The notes below the pieces were generated by a model. It was not told where the DNA came from, ran no database searches, and saw only the letters and a program-made list of their open reading frames with translations. Positions 49,406 to 53,578 of a stretch of DNA of 64,000 nucleotides are shown one piece after another. A program made the translations under genes and the position numbers. The DNA is taken from contig JABARQ010000011.1 in assembly GCA_019186985.1 (NCBI GenBank), positions 1 to 64,000 on the forward strand, read 5' to 3'. Within the stretch, counting starts at the first letter, position 1. Every line of letters starts with the position of its first letter. The stretch comes from Prosthecobacter sp. Its GTDB lineage: Bacteria; Verrucomicrobiota; Verrucomicrobiia; Verrucomicrobiales; Verrucomicrobiaceae.

Positions 49406-52400
49406 ATGCGCCGACCATTCGCCCTGCTGGCCTTCTGCTCTCTGCTCTACGCTCACTGCCACGCGCAACCCGTGTCGCTCTTCGACGGCAAGACGCTCGA
49501 CGGCTGGGACTTTGACCCTGCCATGTGGCGCGTCGAGGATGGTGTCATCACCGGCGGCTCCACGACGGATAGAATCAAGAAGAACGACTTCATCAGCACG
49601 AAGAAGTCGTATCAAAACTTTGAGCTGAAGCTCAGGATCAAGGTCAGCGGCGATCCGAAGACCGGCATGCTCAACAGCGGCATCCAGATCCGCAGCGTGC
49701 GGGCGGAGCACGGTGCGATGAGCGGTTATCAGGTGGACTGCGGCGCGGGCTGGTTTGGCAAGATCTACGACGAGCACCGCCGAAACAAGGTCATCTGGTC
49801 ACCTGCGCCCGAGCAGCAGGCCGCGCTCGACAAGGCCGTCGACGTCTTCGGCTGGAACGAATACCGGATTCGCGCCGAAGGGCCGCGCATCCAGACCTGG
49901 ATCAATGGCGTCCACTGCATGGACTACACCGAGGCCGACCCCAACATCGCGCTCGACGGCCACATCGCCCCGCAGGTGCACAGCGGCGGCGTCTGCCTCG
50001 TGCAGGTCAAAGACGTGACCATCGAGGAACTGCCCGCCACACCCGGTGCGCCGACTTGGGAGTCTCTGGGCGGGCGCGAGGCGGCTTTGAAGAAGGTTTC
50101 AAGTTCCAAGTCTCAAGTTCCAGGAAACTCGAAACCTGAAACTGGAAACGTGAAACGCGACATCAGCTACAACAACGTGCAAGGCACCGCTTTGACCGCC
50201 CAGGACCAATTGAAGAAGTTCAAACTGCCCGAAGGCTACGAAATCGAGCTCGTCGTGCAGGAGAGTGAAGGCCTTGGAAAATTTGTCAGCGTCTATTTCG
50301 ACCAGCGCGGCAGGATGTGGACGCAGACCGCGCTCGAGTATCCCGTCGATGCGAATGAAAACCCCGCCGCCGCCGAGGCGGTGTATGCGGGCAAGGGCAA
50401 GGATAAGGTGCTCGTCTATCCGCGGGAGTCTTTGAATGCAAAGATTCCCGCGGGTGGACTCACAAACCCGACCGTTTTCGCCGACGGTCTCGCCATCCCG
50501 CTCGGCATCCTGCCATGGGGGGCGGGTGACGGCTGCTACGTGCAGCACGGCCACGATTTGAAGCTCTACAAAGACACCAATGGCGACGGCAGGGCTGACA
50601 CCTTTGGGGTCGTGCTCACCGGCTTCGGCGTGCAGGACTCGCACCTCTTTCCTCATCAGTTCACGCGGGCGCCAGGCGGCTGGATCTGGATGGCGCAGGG
50701 CCTCTTCAACAACAGCCAGGTCCGCAAACCCGGCAGCGAAAAGGTCGTCGACTGGCCGAAGTGCAGCATGGCCCGCATGCGACCCGATGGCAGCGAGTTC
50801 GAGGTCATCAGCACCGGCCCGAACAACATCTGGGGCCTCGTCATCACCGGCGAAGGCGAGACCTTCATCCAGGAGGCCAACGACTACGGCTACCCCGTCA
50901 TGCCCTTCCACGAATACGCCTACTACCCCGGCGGTATGGAGGCCCTCAAAAAAAGCTACCAGCCCGATTTCCCGCCGCAGGCCGAGTTCCGCATGGGCGG
51001 CACGGGGTTGAGCGGCCTCGCACTCATCGAAAGCGGATCGTTGAAGGACAAAGAGGCTGCGCACACCATGGCCGTCGCCAATCCCATCATCTCGAAGATC
51101 CAAACCATCGCCATGCATCGCGACGGCGCGTATTGGCGACTCGCCCAACTCCCCGACCTCATCACCTGCGACGATCCCTTCTTCCGCCCCGTCGCCCTCA
51201 CCAACGGCCCAGACGGCTGCATCTACATCGTCGATTGGTACAACAAGATCATCTCCCACAACGAGGTGCCGCGTGCGCATCCAGATCGTGACAAGACGCG
51301 GGGGCGCATCTGGAGGGTGAAACCCAAGGCTGCGAAGACCGAAATACACGACTTTACGAAGCTGAGCACCGAGGAGCTTGTCGAGTTGCTTGGCAAAGAG
51401 CCTGTCGGTAAAGTTCACCTCGCCTGGCAGGAGCTGCTCGACCGCAAACAGCTCCCGGCGACCCATTTTGCCGCTCAAGAGTATCTCGCCAGCAGTCAGT
51501 TCGGTCAGATCAGTCAGATCGGTCGGAATCTGTCAGAGCAAACCATCCCCGCTCTCCTCGCCTTCGCCAAGCCCAGCCTCCCCGGCCCCACCCTCCCATC
51601 CTCCCGAGGTCCGAAGCGTATCCCCGTGCGTGAAGCCTACGACCGCGAGTTCGAGCGCTTCCTCGTCCGCATGTTCCTGGAGCGGCAGCCCGACATCGTC
51701 GCGAGGTTTCTCGACTCAGAAGCAGCCGCGAAACTGCCCGTCGAGGCCCGCGTGCTCGCCTCTCTCGCGTTGGAACCGAAGGCCAGCGCCTCCCGCGTCG
51801 CGAAACTGCTCCCGCAGCTCGACCGCGCCCCGAATGACGAGGAACTCCTCCGCCTCGCCCAGTTCCCCGAGGAGCCTGGCGTGGGAGAGGCATTGAAAGC
51901 ACTCCTCACGAATGAAAGGTCACGGTCATCCGTGGTGGCAAAGCTGCTGGTGAACCGCACGAAGATCGACAATTCCCAGATTGGCCGGCTGATCATCGAT
52001 GTCTCGGAACAGATGATGCAAAGCTCCGATGAAAAGGTGCGTGGGCAGGCCCTGGACATGGTGATCGGCTTCCAGCGAGGATCTGAGCAGGCCATCATCC
52101 CGCCATTGATGGAACGTCAGAACCGCGTCCTTCAAAGGGAATCCGTGCCCATGGACGCCAGTGGCGAGCTTGTGCACCGGCTCAAGGCCCTCGCCGCCAT
52201 GCGAACCCAGGAGGCTCAGCTGTTTTATGTCCTGGCCGGCTCCGATCCGGATGAACGTGTCCGTGAGGCCGCGCTGGACGCACTCATCTCCACCAGCACC
52301 AACGTGGCCCAGAGCGCCTGTGAGAGGCTCTTCAAGCTGTATCCCTCGCTCAGCTCGGATCAGCGCAAGCGCGTCTTGCTTCCCCTCTCGGGTCAGGCAG

Positions 52401-53578
52401 AGGGCGGTGCGAAGTTTCTGATGGCGGCCGTGCTGGACAAGGTCGTGCCCGTGAACGACCTCGACGGCATCATCGTCGAGCGACTCGCCACCGTGCTCGG
52501 CGACGATCCCTTGCTCGAAAAGCTGCAGCAGCAGCTCGGCGGCGTTTTCCGGGAGGTCCTGCTGCTCGACGGCCGGGACACGGCGTGGGTTGATTCGAAG
52601 ATCACGCTCGAAGGTCCCTTCACCGTCGAGGCCTGGGTTCGGCTGGCGCCTGGCGTTGGCAATGAAGACTGCCTGCTGGGAACGCCCAATGGAATCCAGC
52701 TCAACTTCTTCCAGTCCAAGTTCCGCGTGTATGCAGGCAATGAGCTGCATGATGTCTGCGTGGCCTCGAAGCCGGTGACGCCGGAATTGTGGACGCATCT
52801 GGCCGTGACGCGCGATGCGCAGGGCATCTGCCGCATTTATCAAAACGGAGAACTTGATGCGGAAGGCGCCAAGCCCGCTCCGATGAAGTGGGAAGACTGC
52901 CGGATCGGGTGGAGCGGCCCCGCGAAGGGCACCGAGGGCGCCATCACCGAGTTCCGAGTGTGGAAAGTGGCTCGGAGTGCCGCTGAGATTCGTGGCGGCT
53001 TCGACAGGTCCTATGCGTCGAATGAGTCCCATAGGACCTATCTCAAAGCAGGTGAAAAGCTCGGCATGGGCGCCAGGATCGCCAAGACCATCGACAGCCC
53101 GCCGCTGCTCAGCGAAGACGCCGCGAAGGTCCTCGACGCCAAGTTTGCCAAATTCACGGACCTGGCCAGGAAAGGCAATCCCCAGGCGGGCAAAGCCCTC
53201 AGCGCGCTTTGCCTGGCGTGCCATCAAATCGGCAGCGCCGGCGGCCAGATCGGCCCGAACCTCTCCGGCGCGGGCGCGATGGGTCTGGAGGCCGTTTTGC
53301 GCAACATCCTCACGCCGAACGCCGCCATGGAGCCCGGCTACCGCATCTACCGCGTCGAAATGAAGAACGGCGACCTTATCGACGCCTTCTTTGTCAGTGA
53401 GGACAAGGATGCCGTCATCATCCGCCAGGCGGGCCTGCCCGACAGACGTCTGGGCAAGGCCGACATCCGCAGCACCCGGTTCATCCGGCGCAGCCTGATG
53501 CCTGAAGGCCTGCTGGACGGACTGGCGGATGCGCAGGTGGCCGATCTGCTGGCCTATCTCATGACCTTGAGGGGATAA
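49406..53578 (+). CDS. Five-module PVC-type heme protein (DUF1080, dehydrogenase, HEAT, LamG, cyt c)
   Basis: 1390 residues. Signal peptide (1-21), DUF1080 3-keto-disaccharide-hydrolase-like domain (about 22-215), linker with a 21-residue repeat-coded stretch (231-251), NHL/PQQ-type membrane-bound dehydrogenase propeller (about 265-640), helical HEAT-like region (about 650-1000), LamG/concanavalin-like domain (about 1050-1190), C-terminal cytochrome c with CLACH (1269-1273). The propeller plus heme suggests oxidation of a sugar with electron transfer to the heme. Divergent AraC copy 2 may regulate it. It is much longer than ordinary members. A 9-nt repeat array lies near residues 697-711. Confidence 0.85.
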   Translation: MRRPFALLAFCSLLYAHCHAQPVSLFDGKTLDGWDFDPAMWRVEDGVITGGSTTDRIKKNDFISTKKSYQNFELKLRIKVSGDPKTGMLNSGIQIRSVRAEHGAMSGYQVDCGAGWFGKIYDEHRRNKVIWSPAPEQQAALDKAVDVFGWNEYRIRAEGPRIQTWINGVHCMDYTEADPNIALDGHIAPQVHSGGVCLVQVKDVTIEELPATPGAPTWESLGGREAALKKVSSSKSQVPGNSKPETGNVKRDISYNNVQGTALTAQDQLKKFKLPEGYEIELVVQESEGLGKFVSVYFDQRGRMWTQTALEYPVDANENPAAAEAVYAGKGKDKVLVYPRESLNAKIPAGGLTNPTVFADGLAIPLGILPWGAGDGCYVQHGHDLKLYKDTNGDGRADTFGVVLTGFGVQDSHLFPHQFTRAPGGWIWMAQGLFNNSQVRKPGSEKVVDWPKCSMARMRPDGSEFEVISTGPNNIWGLVITGEGETFIQEANDYGYPVMPFHEYAYYPGGMEALKKSYQPDFPPQAEFRMGGTGLSGLALIESGSLKDKEAAHTMAVANPIISKIQTIAMHRDGAYWRLAQLPDLITCDDPFFRPVALTNGPDGCIYIVDWYNKIISHNEVPRAHPDRDKTRGRIWRVKPKAAKTEIHDFTKLSTEELVELLGKEPVGKVHLAWQELLDRKQLPATHFAAQEYLASSQFGQISQIGRNLSEQTIPALLAFAKPSLPGPTLPSSRGPKRIPVREAYDREFERFLVRMFLERQPDIVARFLDSEAAAKLPVEARVLASLALEPKASASRVAKLLPQLDRAPNDEELLRLAQFPEEPGVGEALKALLTNERSRSSVVAKLLVNRTKIDNSQIGRLIIDVSEQMMQSSDEKVRGQALDMVIGFQRGSEQAIIPPLMERQNRVLQRESVPMDASGELVHRLKALAAMRTQEAQLFYVLAGSDPDERVREAALDALISTSTNVAQSACERLFKLYPSLSSDQRKRVLLPLSGQAEGGAKFLMAAVLDKVVPVNDLDGIIVERLATVLGDDPLLEKLQQQLGGVFREVLLLDGRDTAWVDSKITLEGPFTVEAWVRLAPGVGNEDCLLGTPNGIQLNFFQSKFRVYAGNELHDVCVASKPVTPELWTHLAVTRDAQGICRIYQNGELDAEGAKPAPMKWEDCRIGWSGPAKGTEGAITEFRVWKVARSAAEIRGGFDRSYASNESHRTYLKAGEKLGMGARIAKTIDSPPLLSEDAAKVLDAKFAKFTDLARKGNPQAGKALSALCLACHQIGSAGGQIGPNLSGAGAMGLEAVLRNILTPNAAMEPGYRIYRVEMKNGDLIDAFFVSEDKDAVIIRQAGLPDRRLGKADIRSTRFIRRSLMPEGLLDGLADAQVADLLAYLMTLRG
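50096..50158 (+). repeat. Nine-unit 7-nt inverted array inside a coding region
   Basis: Exactly 63 nt made of nine heptamers: four of the form GTYYCAA/G and then five of the form GAAACNN, the reverse complement of the first type. The centre (GTTCCAGGAAAC) is nearly palindromic. The array starts on a codon boundary (residue 231) and encodes 21 residues in the linker between DUF1080 and the dehydrogenase domain. Seven is not a multiple of three, but nine units are. Looks like a dispersed repeat inserted in frame. Confidence 0.85.
51493..51537 (+). repeat. Five-unit 9-nt tandem array inside the same gene
   Basis: Five nonamers with consensus CRGTCAGAT (51493-51501 and on to 51537), the last two degenerate. 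Because 9 is a multiple of 3, the reading frame is kept whatever the copy number. It encodes repeats of S/G-Q-I/F near residues 697-708, between the propeller and the HEAT-like region. Distinct in sequence and period from the 7-nt array in the same gene. Confidence 0.75.

Follow-up and report, generated by a model that had tools for sequence, protein, structure and literature searches.

A palindromic tract of heptamers in an interdomain linker of a Prosthecobacter protein is probably a diverged copy of a dispersed repeat with GTTTCAR arms

Results

The DNA under study (the window) is a stretch of 64,000 nucleotides from Prosthecobacter sp., whose genome of 5.88 Mb (G000) is referred to below as the host genome. 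An open reading frame (ORF) on the plus strand at 49406-53578 encodes a multidomain protein of 1390 aa, in which Pfam recognises a 3-keto-disaccharide hydrolase domain (PF06439, residues 22-206, 49469-50023), DUF7133 (PF23500, residues 266-641, 50201-51328), a LamG-like domain (PF13385, Laminin_G_3, residues 1065-1195, 52598-52990) and a cytochrome c domain (PF00034, residues 1260-1302, 53183-53311), all on the plus strand. Between PF06439 and PF23500 lies a tract of nine 7-nt units, 63 nt in total (50096-50158), which encodes residues 231-251. Its left arm (50096-50123, plus orientation), read directly and from genome pattern matches, consists of four GTYYCAR heptamers, GTTTCAA, GTTCCAA, GTCTCAA and GTTCCAG; its right arm (50124-50158, minus orientation), read directly, with a looser pattern and by ortholog comparison, consists of five heptamers in the reverse orientation, GAAACTC, GAAACCT, GAAACTG, GAAACGT and GAAACGC. 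The head-to-head pattern match inside the tract spans 50096-50142. The initial annotation of this DNA had described four and five heptamers facing each other in codon phase, and this is what the sequence reads.

The orthologs of the host protein were collected as 30 loci including its own, and the linker is readable in 26 of them, i.e. 25 besides its own. None of these 25 carries the heptamer array. Read by eye, the site of the tract holds a stretch rich in Pro and Ala in 22 of the 25; it measures 12-16 residues in 20 of the 22, where the host protein has 19 residues before Lys-Arg-Asp. The segment bounded by APTW and RDxSYN has 42 residues in the host protein and 27-41 (median 37) in the orthologs, which gives a median net gain of 5 residues at the linker. 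The orthologs have their Lys-Arg codons where the tract ends in AAACGC, so that its foreign part is about 50096-50152. The tract is shown to have replaced an ancestral linker of the Pro/Ala type, the copy being read in frame. The 21-residue insertion proposed at the outset is therefore in frame and in a linker, but a clean insertion is rejected and the word is wrong in detail, because the orthologs carry a different linker at the site; the proposed check of whether homologs lack these residues showed the array to be absent, although the orthologs are not simply shorter by 21 residues. In two orthologs (L203 in G005 and L216 in G026) the slot of the tract is filled by another palindrome, starting GTAGAACG, which resembles the GTAG REPs.

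A strict three-unit pattern, GTYYCARGTYYCARGTYYC, matched the host genome 28 times at 14 places including the window, whereas the same pattern read backwards gave 0 matches; a looser spacing pattern gave 45 matches versus 18 in its control. The whole-genome search suggested in the initial annotation thus found similar tracts at 13 other places under the strict pattern, and the observations that would have spoken against its reading, namely homologs with the same residues in unrelated codons and a genome free of similar tracts, were not made on either count. The flanks of 18 other places from both searches were read, and some of these are intergenic, some lie in protein linkers and some lie beside other heptamer arrays. 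The only strict head-to-head copy in the host genome is the window tract itself, which has no core. Within the window, a two-unit pattern with one mismatch gave 6 matches versus a shuffled mean of 2.02, with at least 6 in 1 of 100 shuffles. Together, the shuffles in the window and the genome control of 0 exclude a chance origin of the tract.

Three further tracts of the host genome (L001, L003 and L016) all lie between PSCyt1 and PSCyt2, and the length differences within each of these sites are multiples of three. The L003 site measures 37-40 nt in 12 of 13 measurable relatives (one locus was unmeasurable), 91 nt in G058 and 148 nt in the host genome, and six of the short relatives are made of another, CTCAAAR-like, heptamer type. 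The L016 site measures 75 nt in the host genome and 96 nt in five relatives, all with head-to-head heptamers; among the other relatives it is 24 nt in four (three of which keep about one unit), 33 nt in one and 39 nt in one, and three have 60 nt of other sequence. The L001 site is 78 nt in the host genome and 75-84 nt in three relatives, with heptamers in all, and 21 nt in four relatives; in the remaining seven loci, some of which are probably paralogs, other repeats or linkers fill 45-57 nt. In the region of L003 (contig C4, 138359), a 60-bp dispersed repeat is nested between the heptamer arms (about 844-903 of the query), and it has 90-95% matches in several other same-genus genomes. Relatives' PSCyt linkers are also found as other heptamer runs, of CTCAAAR, GGTCAGA and GAAATTC types (L263-L267, L269, L302 and L303), and because of these runs the PSCyt linker slot appears to take up period-7 DNA repeatedly.

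Among the matches listed, 55 distinct same-genus copies were examined, 46 from 49 loci (45 under an alternative parser) and nine from L316-L324. Frames of at least 900 nt hold 26 of the 55, and 17 of these 26 are in Pfam-recognised proteins: 12 in PSCyt2 proteins, two in UvrA, two in DUF7133 proteins (the window included) and one in ThiC. Eleven of the 12 PSCyt2 hosts also have PSCyt1, with the element between the two, and in the twelfth the element lies just ahead of PSCyt2. The window copy lies between domains and the other DUF7133 copy (L390) inside the DUF7133 match, and the ThiC copy (L316, in another same-genus genome) is head-to-head, in frame and between two Pfam domains. Two of the 26 (MFS, L377; rhodanese, L394) are probably upstream of the true start, and seven are in frames without any family, which may be spurious. 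The recurrent encoded peptide is about VSSxKFQVSGS...LETLNLKPET. An unaltered right arm would give an in-frame TGA every 21 nt. In the window tract, both right-arm positions at which this is possible (50123 and 50144) read GGA, and in 6 of 14 other coding copies checked the right arm has a TTTAAAC unit, with TTA where TGA would fall; in-frame TGA codons are, by this reading of the copies, avoided where the element is translated. The suggestion that the array generates new protein linkers holds as an outcome, the 17 in-frame copies among the 55 lying mostly in one linker type.

The inverted arrangement, which had been singled out as striking, is the hallmark of a family. Of 48 same-genus genomes, 18 contain head-to-head pairs (GTTTCARGTYYC, 5-65 nt, GRRACYTGAAAC), with 121 matches that overlap, such that one element may count more than once in this and the other head-to-head genome counts, versus 0 for the reversed control; the tail-to-tail arrangement occurs in none of the 48. 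The spread within the genus is patchy, and many genomes have none. A scan of a genome collection yielded at least 120 stretches with the units, from Flavobacterium, other Bacteroidetes, Acidobacteria, Desulfobacterales, Planctomycetes, Verrucomicrobia, a cyanobacterium and candidate phyla. Viral contigs gave 8 stretches versus 1. Neighbouring arrays up to 150 nt apart in the scan loci were head-to-head in 25 cases, tail-to-tail in one and same-direction in 23; when any two bases were allowed between the GTYYC words, these numbers became 31, 4 and 25. A GTTTCCA-type unit is used by three of the tail-to-tail pairs, all outside the genus (L100, L108 and L117), and two of the four are from Desulfonema. 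Of 19 genomes behind chosen loci, all of which had been selected for an inverted pair and in which head-to-head alone was counted, 17 have such a pair, with up to 74 matches: 15-60 in each of ten Flavobacteriaceae (nine titled Flavobacterium), 3, 24 and 74 in the Acidobacteria, 8 in UBA11399, 1-2 in three other genomes, among them a Rhodothermaceae genome with 2 (versus 5 in its control), and 0 in Desulfonema and Syntrophorhabdus. An 86-nt element is identical in G015 and L099/G087 (UBA11399), which may be one organism. These counts show a multi-copy family of one polarity, both in the genus and in other phyla. A search of the open literature by sequence strings and topics found no description of this repeat, subscription papers lying outside its coverage.

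The anatomy of the element is clearest in an acidobacterial genome (G081), in which 16 copies with a 53-nt inner part, out of 32 matches in the scanned loci, could be aligned. The element there has a 25-nt core, its consensus close to GTTAAAGAACGAAGAACATTCAGAC, which is preceded by four GTTTCAR units and followed by four YTGAAAC units; the information content is 1.0-2.0 bits in the arms, 0.2-1.0 in the first ~5 flanking bases and at most 0.4 beyond, which shows sharp ends in this one genome with aligned copies. Copies of the repeat are 53-123 nt long including flanking units. Exactly four units make up 76 of 106 arrays in the acidobacterial set and 78 of 133 in the same-genus set. Bases 1-6 of the acidobacterial units are ~99% constant (with one mismatch per unit tolerated), and base 7 is A in 159, G in 156 and C in one; a few loci from other genomes (L407-L411) were present in the first acidobacterial set, and the unit statistics were redone without L404-L411. 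The A/G choice at the seventh base, seen in L412-L471 (Acidobacteria) and in the same-genus loci, tends to alternate between neighbours, with odds ratios of 0.36 (acidobacterial, p 0.0004) and 0.43 (same-genus, p 0.003). Adjacent states agree (odds ratio 3.0) in the mixed named-loci set, where some arrays are long and slippage-like. Between the two arms, base-7 states show no correlation in any of the three sets (p 0.64, 0.53 and 0.22).

As RNA, the minus strand of the window tract folds with -29.4 kcal/mol (z -4.62, 0 of 200 shuffles as good), whereas the coding strand shows no unusual folding (z -1.18, 22 of 200 shuffles), nor does the coding strand as DNA (z -1.14). The term palindromic thus holds for the orientation of the units, and as RNA the minus strand alone folds unusually well; an mRNA hairpin of the host gene is excluded for the window copy, its coding strand being without unusual folding. 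Rfam gave only four microRNA hits to the window tract (E 0.19-0.69), far below gathering, which we take as chance. For the 46 same-genus copies, z was below -2 on the better strand in 44, as is partly expected since inverted patterns had been selected; among 24 copies in frames of at least 900 nt, the frame strand folds better in 12, the opposite strand in 11, and one is a tie. At ten pairs of sites shared between species, identity is 44% in the core, 71% in the flanks and 75% and 67% in the arms, whose borders, placed by a script, are approximate; strong purifying selection on the arms is unsupported by these pooled values. Since the core diverges faster than the flanks and differs between loci, the copies of the genus are not recent copies of one sequence, and at least some are inherited with their site. 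In uvrA of G011 and G015 (L380 and L388) the element is kept in both, and a change from G-C to T-A leaves the core stem paired. In L365, L372 and L384 the element occupies one site common to three genomes, between the starts of two genes that face divergently; in one of the three the core has been replaced. By their flanks, L323 and L324 probably belong to that site too.

No target duplication is expected from HUH/Y1-type or template-switching routes. A target duplication of at least 2 nt was found in 1 of 46 copies, versus 3.2 by shuffling, and in 0 of nine further copies; GTAG/CGTC within 10 nt was found in 6 of the 46 and 0 of the nine, with ~11 of 55 expected, i.e. without tag enrichment. 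The 25 largest clusters of neighbouring frames within 2.5 kb of 120 element loci, many of which are shorter, include no transposase-like cluster, and the recurrent neighbours are host proteins, single-site orthologs and one histidine-kinase-like family in three loci. In 97,487 nt around 30 Y1 genes there was one two-unit array, and since the GTAGAACG palindrome was also found at 0 of the 30, this search had no working positive control; the numbers of Y1 genes and elements are not correlated (Spearman coefficient 0.23, p 0.12, 47 genomes). For RAYT as the driver the outcome was negative, in a test that lacked a working positive control.

Discussion

We consider it likely that the tract belongs to a dispersed palindromic repeat with GTTTCAR arms (5'-GTTTCAR...core...YTGAAAC-3'), as a copy that has diverged and has almost no core. 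The repeat would spread as a small non-autonomous element, perhaps via its single-stranded hairpin, moved by a putative enzyme, and a duplication-free route is our best guess; copies would survive where the encoded peptide is harmless, i.e. between genes and in flexible linkers. The mobile repeat element of the initial annotation is thus well supported as a dispersed repeat of one inverted polarity, whereas its mobility is something we infer, no transposition event having been seen in this analysis.

The main competitor, which we regard as unlikely, is a heptamer satellite of the STRR/LSSR type grown by slippage, in which the polymerase duplicates 7-nt words and template switching yields the inverted half. 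Adjacent units are indeed alike in the mixed named-loci set, and period 7 is the commonest in 0.86 Mb of the host genome, together with slippage-like arrays of other heptamers, in a sample that includes contigs C8, C15 and C42, which were selected for hits (an N run in L226 was dropped). In an unbiased 400 kb of C1 its lead is small, with 3 exact period-7 runs versus 0-2 for other periods after removal of an N run. Among repeats of 5-11 nt, heptanucleotides also rank first in abundance in most of the genomes surveyed in PMC4679880. Slippage is nevertheless at odds with the polarity, both in the scan loci (25 versus 1) and in the same-genus genomes (18 versus 0 of 48), with the preference for arms of four units, and with the excess of A/G alternation over repetition in the acidobacterial and same-genus sets. 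Long rigid period-7 arrays occur elsewhere in the host genome (C8:14509-14744, L242; C8:164848-165010, L250; C1:179430-179520, L230; C42 18163-18275, L261), with a unit that shifts along the array, e.g. from CGAAGCA to CGAAGCT and CGAAACT. Several GAA-containing heptamer families of this genome may be a separate slippage phenomenon.

A still less probable explanation is a regulatory hairpin, of mRNA or DNA, that is under selection and mostly intergenic, the copies in genes being accidental. It would agree with the persistence of copies at the one intergenic site of three genomes (with the similar flanks of L323 and L324) and with the stem pairing kept in the uvrA pair, but the even split between frame and opposite strands, the uncorrelated states of the two arms in three sets, and a pooled arm identity no higher than that of the flanks all argue against it, as does the absence of any Rfam family at gathering score in eight loci. 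An intrinsic terminator was set aside by eye for the Flavobacterium copies, which have T-runs 5' and A-runs 3'.

We give very little credence to the proposal that a telomerase-like or misreading polymerase adds GTTTCAR words to broken DNA ends, whose joining then produces head-to-head arms and a variable core. End addition would account for the polarity, the variable core, the loss of host sequence and the absent duplications, as well as for the nearly equal A and G at base 7 beside ~99% constancy at bases 1-6 in the acidobacterial set; the sharp ends and common core in G081, on the other hand, point to copying of whole elements, and adjacent units are not independent. A similarity by chance, or selection at the protein level for residues 231-251, is negligible, since the residues are not kept in the orthologs and the genome control was 0, even though a flexible linker rich in Ser and Lys would be plausible at any position.

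The preferred reading, a dispersed palindromic repeat, invites comparison with several known systems. STRRs are direct heptamer satellites of cyanobacteria. CRISPR-like ends read GTTTC...GAAAC, and a CRISPR-like repeat was considered, but the copies here are mostly solitary with multi-unit arms. In the accessible text of PMC10969869 and PMC3767692, the Rickettsia palindromic elements (RPEs) are small palindromes in frame inside unrelated proteins, with a recurrent peptide. Our repeat shares the in-frame position in unrelated proteins (17 of 55 copies, four protein types), but it appears to differ in sequence, and it differs in its heptamer-run arms, in the phyla concerned, in the lack of CGTC tag enrichment and in length (53-123 nt versus 100-150 bp). 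Intragenic copies of the GTAG/CGTC REPs, known from the verrucomicrobium O. terrae, encode 20-30 aa and have uvrA among their hosts, as far as the accessible text of PMC3733652 goes; these and the RAYT-linked REPs resemble our repeat as dispersed hairpins with head-to-head dimers, intragenic copies and a uvrA host (PMC3733652). Here, however, there is no GTAG/CGTC enrichment, the heptamer arms are contiguous, tail-to-tail copies are absent from the genus, and no transposase association was found, in a Y1 test without a working positive control. MITEs are likewise short and dispersed with inverted termini (PMC10969869, accessible part), but our repeat has no target-site duplication, and no parent element was found near the 120 loci, many of them short.

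The heptamers TAACTGA of Beggiatoaceae and GGGAATC of Xanthomonas and Nostoc are mainly direct and mainly intergenic, with inverted pairs in a minority, in the accessible text of PMC4679880 and PMC4692102; with these and the STRRs our repeat shares the unit length of 7 and the patchy spread across phyla. Unlike the direct, near-identical arrays of STRR/LSSR type, it has inverted halves and alternating units, and its unit is GTTTCAR rather than TAACTGA. The early comparison with STRRs accordingly stands for the 7-nt unit, but not for the fixed inverted polarity, the arms of mostly four units and the alternation of units in two of three sets. The palindromic amphipathic repeat coding elements (PARCELs), translated palindromic DNA spreading across taxa according to the accessible part of PMC2996958, resemble it in this respect, but they are 25-residue tandem repeat proteins, whereas our repeat is a single linker-sized element. 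Because the defining tag or unit of RPE, REP, STRR, TAACTGA and GGGAATC is absent from it, we treat the tract's repeat as a variant among palindromic dispersed repeats and assign it to none of the named classes.

A wider proposal, which we offer tentatively and hold to be somewhat less probable than its opposite, is that head-to-head palindromes with heptad arms and no tag form a separate, unnamed superfamily across Verrucomicrobia, Bacteroidota and Acidobacteria; they would be moved by a hairpin-based enzyme and would repeatedly rewrite interdomain linkers, chiefly ahead of PSCyt2 in PSCyt1-PSCyt2 proteins, with an A/G choice kept at every seventh base.

Conclusions

Palindromic 'selfish' insertions that are read in frame have been known best from Rickettsia and from the GTAG/CGTC REPs; the present repeat adds a class of different construction, in other bacteria. 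The occupied and unoccupied linkers of orthologous proteins provide a natural series, which opens two questions to testing: which agent moves hairpins of this kind, and with what frequency proteins gain new linkers from dispersed repeats.
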